NCBI GenBank assembly: GCA_947501845.1
Contig: CANMXP010000006.1
Coordinates: 124,001 to 188,000 of the forward strand
Origin: an uncultured Flavobacteriaceae bacterium
GTDB lineage: Bacteria; Bacteroidota; Bacteroidia; Flavobacteriales; Flavobacteriaceae
Direction: 5' to 3'
DNA: 64,000 bases
In this document: in pieces, positions 318 to 48,808 of the stretch
Layout of the letters: each line of letters starts with the position of its first letter
How positions within the stretch are numbered: the stretch's first letter is position 1
Made by a program: the position numbers and the translations under genes
Notes under the pieces: generated by a model
The model's database searches: none
What the model was told of the DNA's origin: nothing
The model's input: only the letters and a program-made list of their open reading frames with translations

Positions 318-1308
318 TGTTCATTTTTATTTCTTTAGCTTCGGCATTGACCATACCTTCTAAAGCTGGGATCATTTTATTTATAAAAGAAGTCATATGG
401 TCAAAGTCCATTTTATCTGCTTCATCATCCACATGGTGGTAATAATCAAAGTTTGTAAAATCGAAAGTAGAAATCGCTTGTGCAGGTATTTTAAACGCGT
501 TGAAAAAAGGATAATTATCTGAGCGTTTAAATAAATTATATGCTTTGGCTTGCGGTAAATACCCAACGACATCATCTTTTACATAACTATTTAGTTTTTC
601 GGCCATATTTGTTTTATGATACCCTGTTATATATGCCATCGTTTCATTTTCTGCTCTGGGAACTCCTATCATCTCAAAGTTAATCATAGTATATAAATTA
701 AGCCCTTCTTCTTTTAATCGTTTTGCCAAATGTTCAGACCCTTTTAACCCGATTTCTTCGGCCGCATATAGTGTAAACAAAATACTTCGTTTATTACTTT
801 TTGATTTAGCAAAATACTTTGCCCATTCTAAAACAGCCACTGTACCAGAGGCATCATCGTTAGCCCCGTTAGCTATAGTATCTCCATTTACAGCTTCTGC
901 TGTACCAATATGGTCGTAATGGGCCCCTAATATTACAAATTCATTTTTCAGTTCTGGATCCTGCCCTTGAACATATCCTACGACGTTGTAACCAACAATC
1001 TCCTTTAAATTAAAACTATCTCGATAAGTTATAAAGTAAGGTTGAACCTCATTTTCTTTAAAAAAATTTTCAATAAAAACTGCCGCTTTTTCAATACCTA
1101 AGCTTCCCGTATTTCTTCCTTCCAGGTCATCTGAAGCTAAATATTCTAAACTCGATTTTACAGCTTCTTTTAAAACAACTGGTGTTGGCACGGTTTTAGA
1201 AATCGATACCACTTTTTCTGTATTTGTATTCTTTACTTCTGAAATCTTTTTTTGCGAGCCACACCCCAGAATTGTTATGGCTACTATAATACTTAGAAAA
1301 TTTCTCAT
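310..1308 (-). CDS. M28-family zinc aminopeptidase, lipoprotein
   Basis: This is a 332-residue peptidase of the M28 (aminopeptidase Y/S-like) family. A lipoprotein signal ends in ILGC with Cys16, so the enzyme should be anchored in the envelope and face the periplasm or surface. Zinc-ligand motifs are visible: HYDH at 130-133, NDDASG at 150-155 and AAEEIGLKGS at 182-191, with a final His in a YYHH motif near residue 290. The set of metal and general-base residues looks complete, so the enzyme should be active, probably clipping amino-terminal residues from imported peptides. It is followed with an 8-base overlap by the SDR gene. An insulating terminator lies upstream, between it and the pyruvate dehydrogenase genes. 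Confidence 0.9.
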   Translation of the reverse strand: MRNFLSIIVAITILGCGSQKKISEVKNTNTEKVVSISKTVPTPVVLKEAVKSSLEYLASDDLEGRNTGSLGIEKAAVFIENFFKENEVQPYFITYRDSFNLKEIVGYNVVGYVQGQDPELKNEFVILGAHYDHIGTAEAVNGDTIANGANDDASGTVAVLEWAKYFAKSKSNKRSILFTLYAAEEIGLKGSEHLAKRLKEEGLNLYTMINFEMIGVPRAENETMAYITGYHKTNMAEKLNSYVKDDVVGYLPQAKAYNLFKRSDNYPFFNAFKIPAQAISTFDFTNFDYYHHVDDEADKMDFDHMTSFINKMIPALEGMVNAEAKEIKMNNE

Positions 1309-42499: not shown

Positions 42500-44089
42500 A
42501 TGAGCAATAAATTAAATCATAGTATGTCTTTAGCAAAACCAGATGCTGTAGACATTTCGAACAAACAAAAAGTAGCTTTGGCGATTGGTATTTTAGGGTT
42601 ATTCATATTAGCTCTTGCTTTATTTAACACTAACTTTCCTAACAAAGGATTATTCTTAACCTTATCATTAGGGTTCATTGCTATTGGCACAATAATCTAT
42701 TCCAGAGATGCCTATTTAACCAAATTGGAAGGCATAAAAAATGATGGTGTTTGGTTTAAATCCATATCATCTCGCGGAATTTGGGGTTGGATTCTGGGAG
42801 TTATTCTAACAGCATTTTATATTGTATTATATTTTTATCCGCAATATTTAGGGTTGGGTAAAGATGGCACAGAAAACACAGGCTTGATTTCACTTTTTGA
42901 TCCTTTAAGCAATCTATTAAGTGGAAGAAATGCCAGCCAGTGGTTTGTTTATGGAACCTTATACACAGTTGCTATTTTGGTATTTGGTTACAAATTCATG
43001 CTTAAATATAGACATAATAGGTATCAACAATTGCGAACGGCTTCTGTCATGTTTTTTCAATTGGGCTTTGCCTTTTTAATTCCTGAATTTATGTATGTTA
43101 TGAATTCTGATTTACCTTATTATGATTTAAAAAGCGTATGGCCTCTTAACTATTATATTTTTGATGAATGGTCTGTAAAAGCATTTCTTTCTAACGGAAA
43201 TATTGGATTAGGATTCTTATTATTTGGTATCATTTCTATTTTTCTTATCACACCTATTTTAACCTATAAATATGGAAAACGCTGGTATTGTTCGTGGGTT
43301 TGCGGTTGTGGCGGTTTAGCCGAAACTGCAGGTGATTCATTCAGACAATTATCTTCTAAAAAAATGTCTGCCTGGAAATTAGAACGCTGGTTAATTCATA
43401 CAGTACTCGTATTTTCTGTAGTTATGACTGTGGCTATGGTATATACCTATTTGGGCTATGACCATAATGCTTTTTGGCTTACTAAAGGTGTATTTATAAG
43501 TTTAGTTATAGGATTCTTAACCGTTATTTTTGCAGGTGTTATGTATTTTAAACGTCATGAACTTGGTAAAGATGCCAGATACGGAGCCATTGGTTACTTT
43601 GTGGTTATTGTCTTATTGGTTACCATGCACTTTACAGGCACAAGCGAAAATGTATTTTTTATAAAAGGAGGTGACTTACGTTCAGCTTACGGTATCTATA
43701 TAGGCTCTATATTCTCTGGCGTTATTGGTACTGGGTTTTATCCTATTTTAGGAAGTAGAGCTTGGTGTCGTTTTGGGTGTCCTATGGCTGCTATTTTAGG
43801 ATTTCAACAACGATTATTCTCTAAATTTAGAATTACAACCAACGGCGGACAATGTATTTCATGCGGTAACTGTTCTAACAGTTGCGAAATGGGAATTGAT
43901 GTTCGTGCCTATGCTCAAAAAGGTGAAAATATAGTACGCTCTAGTTGTGTTGGCTGTGGTATTTGTAGTGCAGTATGCCCAAGAGGTGTTTTAAAATTAG
44001 AAAATGACACTATGGAGGGACGCATCAATCCAACAGAAATATTATTAGGAAACAATGTCGATTTAATGGATCTTGTTAATAAGAAATAA
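42500..44089 (+). CDS. Membrane-bound 4Fe-4S polyferredoxin (NapH-like)
   Basis: This 529-residue protein has about eight membrane helices and two C-terminal 4Fe-4S clusters: Cys-x2-Cys-x2-Cys-x3-Cys in CISCGNCSNSC and again in CVGCGICSAVC. Two extra Cys pairs in the membrane part (WYCSWVCGCGG and WCRFGCPMA) match the NapH/CcoG-like pattern. It should move electrons between the cytoplasm and the membrane, with the upstream flavoprotein as donor or acceptor. The GIY-YIG element lies 120 bases downstream. Confidence 0.88.
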   Translation: MSNKLNHSMSLAKPDAVDISNKQKVALAIGILGLFILALALFNTNFPNKGLFLTLSLGFIAIGTIIYSRDAYLTKLEGIKNDGVWFKSISSRGIWGWILGVILTAFYIVLYFYPQYLGLGKDGTENTGLISLFDPLSNLLSGRNASQWFVYGTLYTVAILVFGYKFMLKYRHNRYQQLRTASVMFFQLGFAFLIPEFMYVMNSDLPYYDLKSVWPLNYYIFDEWSVKAFLSNGNIGLGFLLFGIISIFLITPILTYKYGKRWYCSWVCGCGGLAETAGDSFRQLSSKKMSAWKLERWLIHTVLVFSVVMTVAMVYTYLGYDHNAFWLTKGVFISLVIGFLTVIFAGVMYFKRHELGKDARYGAIGYFVVIVLLVTMHFTGTSENVFFIKGGDLRSAYGIYIGSIFSGVIGTGFYPILGSRAWCRFGCPMAAILGFQQRLFSKFRITTNGGQCISCGNCSNSCEMGIDVRAYAQKGENIVRSSCVGCGICSAVCPRGVLKLENDTMEGRINPTEILLGNNVDLMDLVNKK

Positions 44090-44209
44090 TAAATACAGTT
44101 TGCAGTATTCATAGGTAATTAAGAGTTTTTTACATTTCAATATTTAATACTTGATCATTGTATAAACTAAATGAAAAACTGAAGCAAAAAGACAAATTAA
44201 AATGATGTT

Positions 44210-44238
44210 GTCATGCTGAGCCTGTCGAAGCATATTCT
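44210..44238 (+). repeat. Left inverted repeat, copy B
   Basis: This copy contains CTGAGCCTGTCGAAG, the core shared with the other REP-like copies. The start codon of the GIY-YIG gene begins 5 bases after it. Confidence 0.65.
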
Positions 44239-44243
44239 ATAGA

Positions 44244-44558
44244 ATGAAATTTTATTATGTTTACATACTACATTGTTCAGATAAAACCTATTATACAGGT
44301 ATGACAAATGATTTAGAAAGAAGAATTAATCAACATGAATCTGGTTATAGGAAAGATAGTTATACGTATTCAAGACGACCAATTAAACTCAAATGGTATT
44401 TACAATGTACTAATCCAACAGAAGCTATTAAAATTGAAAAACAAATTAAAGGATGGTCTCAACGAAAAAAAGAAGCATTAATTAACGAAAATTGGAAAGA
44501 TTTAATCGAATTCTCTAAAAATTATACTGAATATGAACATCCTGATAACCGAGAATAG
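44244..44558 (+). CDS. GIY-YIG nuclease family protein
   Basis: This 104-residue protein is a minimal GIY-YIG endonuclease domain of the UPF0213/YhbQ type. The strand pair is YVYIL (5-9) and YYTGMT (16-21), followed by conserved Arg residues (ERR, 25-27) and the metal-binding Glu of KIEKQIKGW (near 65). There is no DNA-binding tail, so it probably cuts a structured or repeat DNA. It is flanked by an inverted pair of REP-like repeats, and its stop codon lies inside the right repeat. Confidence 0.92.
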   Translation: MKFYYVYILHCSDKTYYTGMTNDLERRINQHESGYRKDSYTYSRRPIKLKWYLQCTNPTEAIKIEKQIKGWSQRKKEALINENWKDLIEFSKNYTEYEHPDNRE

Positions 44559-45087
44559 TCCTCGACAAGCTCGGACTGACAGTCGTTTTTTCAATTGTCT
44601 TGCAAGATATTATACACTTCTTGTTTTTTCTTTGATTTGTTTTTTTGCCTTATCGGCTTCAGCCCAAAAATCGTATAAAAAATCATATTACGATAACGGG
44701 AGTATTAAATCTGAAGGATGGATACACAATAATAAGAAAATAGCATATTGGACGTTTTATTATCCAAACGGGCGTATTGAAAAAGAAGGTCATTTCCAAC
44801 AAGATAAACCTATAAAATATTGGTATTTTTACATCGAAAACGGCAATAAAAGATCGGAAGGTCATTATATTAATGGTAAAAAAAATAATTGGTGGTTATT
44901 TTATGACGATATGGAAAGGGTTAATCATAAATGCCAATTAAAAGACAATCAAAAAAATGGTTACTGTTTGATGTATAAAAACGAAAAACTGGTTGCAGCA
45001 AGAAAATACATAGCTGGTAAAAAAATTAAAGAGTGGACAGATTTCAAGTCCTTTAGGAAAGAAAACAAACTATCTGATCTTCAATGA
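44533..45087 (+). CDS. MORN/YwqK-like repeat protein, exported
   Basis: This 184-residue protein has about four copies of a short motif (YDNGSIKSEGW, YPNGRIEKEGHF, NGNKRSEGHY) of the MORN/YwqK kind. A hydrophobic segment (about 27-45, ending ASAQ) looks like a signal peptide but starts unusually late. The first 18 residues are encoded by the end of the GIY-YIG gene and the right repeat of the element. No other ATG is available, so the native start may have been displaced. It overlaps the next glycosyltransferase gene by 4 bases. Confidence 0.72.
   Translation: MNILITENSPRQARTDSRFFNCLARYYTLLVFSLICFFALSASAQKSYKKSYYDNGSIKSEGWIHNNKKIAYWTFYYPNGRIEKEGHFQQDKPIKYWYFYIENGNKRSEGHYINGKKNNWWLFYDDMERVNHKCQLKDNQKNGYCLMYKNEKLVAARKYIAGKKIKEWTDFKSFRKENKLSDLQ
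44552..44580 (-). repeat. Right inverted repeat, copy C
   Basis: Read on the minus strand this is GTCAGTCCGAGCTTGTCGAG and onward, matching the left repeat. It also contains a small hairpin, AGTCC/GGACT (44557-44561 with 44573-44577). Confidence 0.65.
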
Positions 45088-47305: not shown

Positions 47306-48808
47306 ATGCTTATAAACCCTGCCTTTTTTAAAATATACAGGATGCCTTTTTTAATGGTGGCATCGTGCTTGTTATTTTATATTTTCTTTGCCTACGATTT
47401 AACCAGAACAGATTATACAAAGCTTATCATGTTATATACTGCTTTGTTTTTTATATTCTATAAATTGGTTCAAATCCTAAAGCATAATATATCACTTTTA
47501 ACGTGGATTGCTTTTAGTTTTCGAGCCGTTTTTATTTTAGCGATTCCCAATTTATCACAAGACTTTTACCGTTTTATTTGGGATGGCCGCATGATTTTAG
47601 AAGGGGTCAACCCTTATTTATATACTGTTGAATCTTTTATAAGCAAAGGCGAATTTCCTGTTGCACAAGCACAGGAACTGTATGCAGGCATGGGCAATTT
47701 AAATGCAAGCCATTTTACCAATTACCCTCCTATAAATCAACTTTGCTTTGTTATAGCTGGTTTATTTGCTGGAAAAAGTATTTTGGGATCGGCTATAGTG
47801 ATGCGGTTACTTATCATAGCTGCCGATTTTGGCACTTTATATTTTGGCAAGAAACTACTCGAAAAGTTAAACATTCCTGTCCACAATATTTTTTGGTATG
47901 TTTTAAATCCGTTTATAATTATTGAACTCACAGGCAATTTACATTTTGAAGGCGTTATGATATTTTTCCTTATTTGGAGTCTGTATTTATTATATTCTGG
48001 AAAATGGCAATGGGCCGCTGTTGTTTTAGCTTTATCTATTTCCGTTAAATTAATTCCACTAATATTCTTGCCTTTGTTTTTTAGGTGGTTCACTTCGACT
48101 TCGCTCAGTGCAGGCACTTCGACTCTACTTAATAATGGAATTCGAGAAGAAGAAGAAGAAGAAGACAGCATTGCAAGGGCTGAGCGTCATGACAATCTCT
48201 TAAAACGGATTCCTGCCTTTAAAGGGCTTACTAAGCTAATTGGGTTTTACACTATAGTTATAGCAACTACCATAATACTTTTTATACCTTTTTACTCGTC
48301 AGAATTTATAAATAACTACACTCAAACGGTCGGACTATGGTTTCAAAATTTCGAGTTTAATGCTAGTATTTATTACATAGCTAGAGAAATCGGATACCTA
48401 TTTAGAGGCTATAACGAAATTGCTATTATAGGTAAAATAACGCCTATAATTGTAGTGCTGTTTATTTTAATTATAACGTTTTTCAGAAAAAACAAAACGG
48501 CTATAGAACTTATAACCGCCATGCTATTGGTTTTATCATTTTACTACTTTACAACCACTACTGTTCACCCTTGGTACGTAGCCACACTTTTAATACTATC
48601 TATATTTACTAAATACAAATTTCCTTTGGTCTGGAGTTTTGTTATTATACTAAGTTACTTGGCTTATATAAACCTTAACAAAGCAGACAAATCTGAAAAC
48701 CTGTGGGTTATTGGTTTAGAATATATTATCGTTTACGGCGTCTTTTTTTGGGAAGTCTTTATAAAAAAAGAAAGTCCTCAAACGAGTTTTAAGCGCTCTA
48801 TTCTATAA
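47306..48808 (+). CDS. Polyprenyl-phosphate-sugar-dependent mannosyltransferase-like (GT-C)
   Basis: This 500-residue multi-pass membrane protein matches the GT-C/GT87 type of mannosyltransferases, with DFYRFIWDGRMILEGVNPYLY as the conserved early loop and about eleven membrane helices. It probably transfers a sugar from a lipid-phosphate donor. Between two helices (residues about 263-297) it carries a low-complexity insert with TSTSLSAGTST and a run of seven acidic residues. That insert corresponds exactly to a REP-like repeat in the DNA (48091-48195). Reading frame is kept, so the protein is likely still made. The 3' end overlaps the convergent gene by 31 bases. Confidence 0.85.
   Translation: MLINPAFFKIYRMPFLMVASCLLFYIFFAYDLTRTDYTKLIMLYTALFFIFYKLVQILKHNISLLTWIAFSFRAVFILAIPNLSQDFYRFIWDGRMILEGVNPYLYTVESFISKGEFPVAQAQELYAGMGNLNASHFTNYPPINQLCFVIAGLFAGKSILGSAIVMRLLIIAADFGTLYFGKKLLEKLNIPVHNIFWYVLNPFIIIELTGNLHFEGVMIFFLIWSLYLLYSGKWQWAAVVLALSISVKLIPLIFLPLFFRWFTSTSLSAGTSTLLNNGIREEEEEEDSIARAERHDNLLKRIPAFKGLTKLIGFYTIVIATTIILFIPFYSSEFINNYTQTVGLWFQNFEFNASIYYIAREIGYLFRGYNEIAIIGKITPIIVVLFILIITFFRKNKTAIELITAMLLVLSFYYFTTTTVHPWYVATLLILSIFTKYKFPLVWSFVIILSYLAYINLNKADKSENLWVIGLEYIIVYGVFFWEVFIKKESPQTSFKRSIL
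48091..48195. repeat. REP-like repeat inserted in coding sequence, copy D
   Basis: The left part holds CACTTCGACTTCGCTCAGTG (48091-48110) and a second CACTTCGAC. A (GAA)6 tract lies at 48146-48163. The right end reads GTCATGACGCTCAGCC on the minus strand (48179-48194), so the ends face outward as in the GIY-YIG element. The whole lies in frame in the GT-C gene. Confidence 0.7.

Follow-up and report, generated by a model that had tools for sequence, protein, structure and literature searches.

At the polyferredoxin-YwqK junction in the genome of an uncultured Flavobacteriaceae bacterium, a short gene for a predicted GIY-YIG nuclease lies between two inverted copies of a REP-like repeat. The window, i.e., the whole 64,000-nucleotide stretch of DNA that was analyzed, contains the following features of this unit and its repeat:

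About 44186..44597, + strand: whole unit, the stretch common to copies at unrelated loci in the genus (blastn of window 44000-44900)
44191..44212, + strand: GACAA-N12-TTGTC, two opposed tag-like motifs at the left REP, within the shared stretch and with a putative role in the unit
44209..44237, + strand: left REP, with TGTC tag, 5-bp stem ATGCT/AGCAT and inner part GAGCCTGTCGA
44244..44558, + strand: GIY-YIG nuclease gene (PF01541), 104 aa, presumed catalytic residues conserved
44553..44581, - strand: right REP, inverted, with TGTC tag and stem AGTCC/GGACT; contains the nuclease stop codon
48093..48108, - strand: solo type-A REP core, in frame within ORF 47306-48808

An earlier note on this DNA had described a tiny GIY-YIG gene between two ends that match at 22 of 29 positions, with its stop codon inside the right end, no transposase of known type, and solo copies of the repeat core nearby. 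This description holds. The best 29-base inverted pair is 44209-44237 with 44553-44581, at 22/29; the 104-aa ORF is the only gene between the ends; its TAG stop (44556-44558) falls within the right arm; neither the ORFs nor a profile search gave a transposase gene within the unit; and a second copy of the core begins at 48093. The extent given there (44210..44580) is correct for the arms, but the unit is somewhat larger: matches to related units at three other loci (L066, L115 and L143) begin at 44186-44191 and stop at 44569-44597, and the DNA on either side is unalignable.

Chance pairing of the arms was rejected: against the observed 22/29, 60 mononucleotide shuffles gave at most 20 matches and 120 random window places of equal geometry at most 21. 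The left arm reads TGTC-ATGCT-GAGCCTGTCGA-AGCAT and the right arm TGTC-AGTCC-GAGCTTGTCGA-GGACT; the two arms share one fold, a 5-bp stem with an 11-base inner part. One of the seven mismatches lies in the inner part. The other six amount to three stem base pairs altered on both sides, with T-A, G-C and T-A in the left-arm stem corresponding to G-C, T-A and C-G in the right arm, and because of these paired changes we consider the arms to be hairpins. The folding energies of the two window arms are not unusual relative to shuffles (z -0.78 and -0.65), and with gapped scoring the window locus is not outstanding, the best inverted flank match being a different pair that scores 26, within the range of control genes. 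It is the paired stem changes, rather than the gapped score, that make the window locus convincing.

The repeat core, CTGAGC-N2..5-GTCGAAG, occurs twice in the window (44216 and 48093; mean of 0 in 100 shuffles) and 35 times in the genome, compared with 0 for the reversed pattern. Among 29 distinct copies, taken from 30 of the 35 genomic places, the two positions just outside the core form Watson-Crick pairs in 76% and 86%, compared with 35% and 41% with shuffled partners (p = 5e-4 each). These outer pairs use different bases in different genomic copies, and positions further outside the core give no pairing signal among the 29 copies. The pairing pattern points to constraint on the repeat hairpin. 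As for known Rfam RNAs, the one match, a sub-threshold CRISPR repeat at 44259-44287, lies inside the coding sequence and was taken as chance.

The protein encoded between the arms matches PF01541 with 60.9 bits (cut-off 22.6) and, judged by its sequence, is a member of the GIY-YIG endonuclease superfamily and a predicted nuclease. R27, H31 and E65 are invariant in 62 proteins, and Y7, Y17 and G19 are conserved at 90% or more; among these positions are those that we take to be catalytic. Relative to four copies, dN/dS is 0.06-0.10 (the L240 row, 0.30, in which the lengths are not aligned, is excluded, and L238 has no row), a range indicative of a functional gene under strong purifying selection. 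The AlphaFold model of the protein has a pLDDT of 84.7. The structures nearest to it are the UPF0213 entries 1zg2 (E 1.5e-5) and 1ywl (5e-3), followed by Slx1 (E 0.03) and the GIY-YIG domain of UvrC (E 0.17). UPF0213-type single-domain GIY-YIG proteins have the same fold and family as the window protein. Phage and defense families were also considered, and none matched it.

PF01541 matches number ten in the host genome and fall in nine genes. Two of these genes are multi-domain and seven are short; six of the short ones are intact, and the seventh is frame-broken and accounts for two matches. By eye, palindromic repeats of differing types lie at or beside all seven short genes, on one side only at L040. 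At that locus (G000:C10:113860), a type-G nuclease gene adjoins tRNA-Leu(caa) (517-599, minus strand), and the 3' end of the tRNA is repeated beyond the far side of the nuclease gene, as if the unit had entered the tRNA gene.

Inverted repeats also flank short GIY-YIG genes in the genus as a whole. The genus set consisted of 12 genomes including the host, with 107 distinct short ORFs from a subset of listed loci; pieces of broken genes are counted, and identical proteins and contig-edge genes were removed from an initial 127. An inverted-repeat score of at least 28 was obtained at 50 of the 107 ORFs, compared with 1/51 window control genes and 7.1% of mismatched flank pairs, the latter being a conservative control because they include true matches between loci of the same repeat type; the other 57 ORFs scored below this threshold. 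Nuclease units occur in tandem, two or three at a time and spaced about 280-590 bp, at L101, L104, L079, L107, L119, L125 and L135. In the family sample described below, L242 (G024:C15) has a pair of nuclease genes separated by 1036 bp whose match scores are the same, which probably reflects recent duplication.

A second set, mostly from Alphaproteobacteria, was drawn from a scan of genome contigs (77 usable loci from the best 80 of 535; L173, L177 and L213 were dropped). Scores of at least 30 were found at 62/77 short GIY-YIG genes and at 7/306 control genes, taken from the same loci at a distance of 1 kb or more; 15 of the 77 fell below 30. Hairpins tagged [CT]GTC occur on both sides within 200 bp at 38/77 nuclease genes versus 2/312 controls, and other tags gave far lower counts in the same test (C[TC]TC, 3/77 vs 1/312; CTGC, GACG and CTGT, 0/77 each). 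The usual arms are CGTCATCCTCGGGCTTGACCCGAGGATCCA and CGTCACCCCGGCGAAGGCCGGGGTCCA, and the orientation of the nearest REP in this set is not fixed (45 heads out, 50 heads in). The excess of repeats near GIY-YIG genes on which the earlier reading depended is therefore present in both sets. Repeat flanking is not a trait of all GIY-YIG genes: the four multi-domain genes that could be measured (UvrC-like L007 was left out, its flank being too short) score only 18-20.

REP arms were found further afield as well. A tblastn search yielded 40 plasmid records and 24 phage records, and 12 of these 64 were examined. Repeat arms are present at eight, from Shinella, Sphingobium (two), Sphingomonas parapaucimobilis, Methylobacterium (two), Planktothrix and Spirosoma. 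The remaining four, from Sphingomonas paeninsulae, Cupriavidus, Cetobacterium and a Rhizobium phage, are distant relatives of the UPF0213 type and, unlike the window unit, have no REP arms. At the nuclease of a Rickettsiales bin (L197), the arms score 33.

The type of repeat follows the subfamily of nuclease. Ten REP types were set by reading the flanks before any tree existed. On a tree of 125 proteins, 111 of them labelled, these types require 10 changes, against a minimum of 9 and a shuffled mean of 76.7; the tree is built on few columns and leaves many forks unresolved, and proteins under 75 aa were left out. Because near-copies could inflate the match, the rows were thinned by identity. 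Under 70% identity, 41 rows give 11 changes (lowest of 300 shuffles, 22), and the nearest relative has the same REP type in 35/41, where 5.9 are expected. Under 60%, 25 rows give 9 changes, which is the minimum (lowest shuffle, 14). Under 50%, 17 rows give 9 changes (lowest shuffle, 10), and the nearest relative is of the same type in 6/17 (1.1 expected). Nuclease subfamily and REP type thus correspond almost one to one.

Nine nucleases were also compared across phyla by best local score. A Sphingomonas nuclease with a CTGAGC..GTCGAAG repeat and an Ignavibacteriales nuclease with a ATTCCTGC..GCAGGAAT repeat are each nearest to a nuclease of their own repeat type, and for a Roizmanbacteria nuclease with a type-E repeat a type-E nuclease ranks second. 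For two of the nine queries (Planktothrix and one Methylobacterium), the nearest nuclease does not have a like repeat, and four queries have repeats beyond the ten types. Among 12 alphaproteobacterial genomes, the core CTCGGGCTTGACCCGAG is found in all three whose nuclease has that repeat and in two of the other nine.

These results bear on whether the genes and repeats are mere bystanders, i.e., whether REPs serve as terminators or gather in neutral spacers, with small dispensable genes falling between them by accident. The 2013 REP survey describes REPs as mostly intergenic (PMC3733652), as such an explanation would have it, and our controls were same-stretch genes and multi-domain GIY-YIG genes. 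We nevertheless consider it highly improbable, given that neither kind of control gene has the pattern and that nuclease subfamily matches repeat type.

An association was also found at the level of whole genomes. In a family sample of 60 genomes from 59 genera, 22 contain a nuclease of the clade at E <= 1e-12. The median number of core copies is 11 in these genomes and 0 in the 38 without (p = 9e-7), and at least five copies are present in 16/22 and 4/38, respectively; the reversed pattern occurs 0 or 1 times per genome. Four genomes thus hold at least five copies with no clade nuclease at this threshold, and three have the nuclease and no type-A copies, the nuclease flanks there being of type B or C by reading. 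Among 61 genomes around Shinella (30 with and 31 without), the effect is weak: the medians are 1 and 1 and the means 13.3 and 2.2 (p = 0.044, or 0.066 without the center genome), with at least 10 copies in 9/30 versus 2/31 (Fisher p = 0.02). The weakness likely arises because the nuclease cut-off spans clades with other repeats while the pattern covers one loop class. The co-occurrence of repeat and nuclease that the earlier note had proposed as a check accordingly exceeds chance clearly in the family and weakly in the Shinella sample.

The same genomes speak to whether the repeats are mobilized by RAYT/IS200-type (Y1) transposases encoded elsewhere in the genome. PF01797, which covers Y1 transposases of the RAYT class, matches in 28/60 family genomes, and its presence alone gives a slight trend (p = 0.046). 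This trend is not significant once the genomes are split by nuclease (p = 0.09 among nuclease-less genomes, p = 0.67 among nuclease bearers), whereas in the 32 Y1-less genomes the core medians are still 12 with the nuclease and 0 without (p = 7e-4), and on this ground Y1 transposases were rejected as the cause of the repeats. The tag, moreover, is TGTC/CGTC rather than GTAG, and the survey saw no CGTC repeats flanking tyrosine transposase genes (PMC3733652). Mobilization by Y1 enzymes is in our estimate exceedingly improbable.

Position varies between relatives. At the polyferredoxin-YwqK junction, the alleles of the 12 genus genomes, as read, comprise two with the unit intact, three with it decayed, one with a solo repeat, and six with neither repeat nor gene. 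Empty sites at this junction, which the earlier note had proposed looking for, are therefore found, and the gene is not in the same place in all relatives, an outcome that would have counted against that reading. On a tree of the neighboring DNA, nuclease presence requires at least three changes among the 12 genomes; old presence followed by later losses is a possible history of the site. No target-site duplication was noticed in the alleles read by eye. The downstream MORN-repeat ORF (44533-45087) differs, by eye, in its N-terminus and signal peptide between alleles with and without the unit, and the insertion seems to have replaced the start of this gene.

Units 82-86% identical in DNA occur at unrelated places in four genus genomes (G002, G003, G007 and G008), with homology ending near the repeats; in G002 and G003 the unit has an internal stop. 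Of 219 pairs of related units within the genus, tandem neighbors included, both flanks are homologous in 75, one in 58 and none in 86. Solo repeats vary likewise. The loop at window 48091-48124, in the predicted membrane protein ORF 47306-48808, is variable, and its REP types differ between genus genomes: a tolerant scan gave type A in G000 and G006, type B twice in G004, and type D in G001 and G003, and by eye there are other types in G007, G008 and G009, with the frame, as shown, unbroken throughout. Rickettsia palindromic elements (RPE) occur inside protein-coding genes, and the loop resembles them in being a palindromic repeat within such a gene. Units and solo repeats alike occupy different positions in related species.

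Repeats also form gene-less dimers of fixed length. In the alphaproteobacterial genome G087, 16 of 18 repeat pairs picked from listed places are 85-86 bp apart, and of the 14 dimers read (L272-L281 and L286-L289), all with CGTC/GACG ends, 13 are 116 bp long and one is 115 bp. Their outer flanks differ and share weak motifs. These flanks resemble weak inverted repeats, possibly part of a larger palindromic target or unit. These dimers are the counterpart of REPINs.

A host function for the nuclease, namely that of a co-adapted repair factor that is kept near the REPs to remove or resolve their hairpins or cruciforms and mobilizes nothing, would agree with the strong purifying selection. It would also agree with the likeness of the model to Slx1, a nuclease that processes branched DNA. 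Such a role is hard to reconcile with a gene that is present, decayed or absent within one genus and with the tandem multiplication of nuclease units, and it does not explain why a repair gene would be bounded physically by its own repeats. We consider it improbable.

The explanation that best accounts for the data, to which we assign a probability of roughly 0.7, is that the locus holds a small selfish unit, in which the gene for a single-domain GIY-YIG nuclease is enclosed by two copies of a hairpin repeat that the nuclease recognizes. The nuclease and the REPs are associated, and we infer that the nuclease cleaves and moves them. The proposal of the earlier note, a minimal repeat-mobilizing unit comparable to REPs with their RAYT but built on a GIY-YIG nuclease, gains support from the polymorphic site, the related units at unrelated places, the repeat excess, the matched types and the co-occurrence in the family genomes, with the nuclease as the putative mover.

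The strongest rival is that the gene encodes a free-standing homing endonuclease. In that case, the REPs would be moved by other means, and the gene would parasitize them, its product cutting one type of REP and the gene being copied in by repair. The Seg type are free-standing GIY-YIG homing endonucleases, and the window gene is like them in encoding a small GIY-YIG nuclease, with no intron or intein, and in being a probable selfish gene. It differs from them in not being bound to one allelic site, in being bounded by its own dispersed repeat, and in the many gene-less copies of that repeat. Homing would equally predict REP-type specificity and dependence on the presence of repeats; also in its favor, one genus genome has a solo repeat and no nuclease at the polyferredoxin-YwqK site, and the Shinella homologue, although not the window protein, weakly matches a homing endonuclease model in PADLOC (E 3e-4). 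Six genomes, however, have neither repeat nor gene at that site, and the four family genomes with repeats and no clade nuclease can be remnants. The data favor a mobilizer over a homing parasite without settling the matter, since the abundance of repeats tracks the nuclease rather than Y1 transposases, the one other enzyme class tested. Homing is in our judgment unlikely.

If the unit is a mobilizer, we propose that the nuclease would bind its cognate REP when extruded as a hairpin or cruciform, e.g., in single-stranded DNA at replication forks, and would cut it at or near the tag. GIY-YIG enzymes hydrolyze DNA without a covalent protein-DNA intermediate; the nuclease therefore cannot itself join ends, and transposition in the manner of RAYT is excluded. 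Spread would instead depend on host break repair, in which the REP or the REP-nuclease unit is copied from a donor into the break or, alternatively, a cut-out hairpin unit is captured. REPINs are thought to be served in trans by RAYTs, and gene-less repeats and repeat dimers could similarly be passengers served in trans by the nuclease.

REPs are common in bacterial genomes, and those of the GTAG kind are associated with the enzyme class RAYT. The present system has in common with GTAG REPs and their RAYT (TnpA-REP tyrosine) transposases, which form REPtrons and REPINs, the short dispersed hairpin repeats. As in a RAYT REPtron, an enzyme gene is flanked by inverted REPs and the enzyme subtype is matched to the REP type, and as with REPINs there are gene-less dimers of fixed length. 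It is not a member of this class: a GIY-YIG hydrolase takes the place of the Y1/HUH transposase between the repeats, TGTC/CGTC stands where the GTAG tag would be, and the joining step, unlike that of RAYT, would have to come from the host. It also lacks the transposase gene of an insertion sequence. Among the matches listed for the open-licence PMC literature, preprints excluded, no link between GIY-YIG nucleases and REPs was found.

A closer relation is to the CGTC REPs. According to the 2013 survey, these have an unpaired CGTC tag, often TGTC or CCTC, an 8-9 bp stem, a 4-5 base loop and a CCA tail, and RPE-6 and RPE-4 of R. conorii are equated there with CGTC families (PMC3733652). The survey also notes that a dedicated transposase is apparently lacking and leaves the question open (PMC3733652). 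The CGTC/TGTC tag, hairpin stem, short loop, CCA tail and wide spread described there (Di Nocera et al. 2013, PMC3733652) are common to the system here, in which the repeats on either side of GIY-YIG genes include CGTCATCCTCGGGCTTGACCCGAGGATCCA and TGTCATTCCTGCGAAGGCAGGAATCCA, both like CGTC REPs. Both window arms begin with TGTC, and the 35 core copies in the genome are dispersed as CGTC REPs are. The window repeat departs from them in its 5-bp stem and 11-base inner part, and in having ATT rather than CCA after the stems, and we therefore file it as a TGTC-tagged relative and not as a member of CGTC-1 to -4. Elsewhere in the same system, the CTCGGGCTTGACCCGAG and ATTCCTGCGAAGGCAGGAAT hairpins have the stem and loop lengths of CGTC REPs, and arms of the D type, like many alphaproteobacterial ones, have the CCA tail. 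The earlier note was right to call the repeat REP-like and did not name its kinship to the described CGTC/TGTC REPs.

The GIY-YIG nuclease is a strong candidate for the missing enzyme of the CGTC/TGTC REPs. A wider claim is one that we put forward tentatively, at a little under even odds: that there is a widespread class of mobile DNA without a transposase, whose spread relies on a single-domain GIY-YIG nuclease of purely hydrolytic chemistry. Each nuclease subfamily would have its own type of TGTC/CGTC-tagged hairpin repeat and would propagate it by hairpin cleavage, the joining of ends falling to host repair. Perhaps dRS3 repeats would also belong to this class, as would Rickettsia palindromic elements and, in Alphaproteobacteria and Bacteroidota, the CGTC REPs.

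For REPs of the CGTC kind there is now a concrete candidate enzyme, with matched enzyme-repeat pairs in several phyla, and the question of the enzyme can be put to a direct test with small proteins and 30-base oligonucleotides. If the proposal is true, joining chemistry is not needed for a nuclease to sustain genome-wide repeat families, and the activity of such a nuclease could account for in-frame palindromic insertions in genes.
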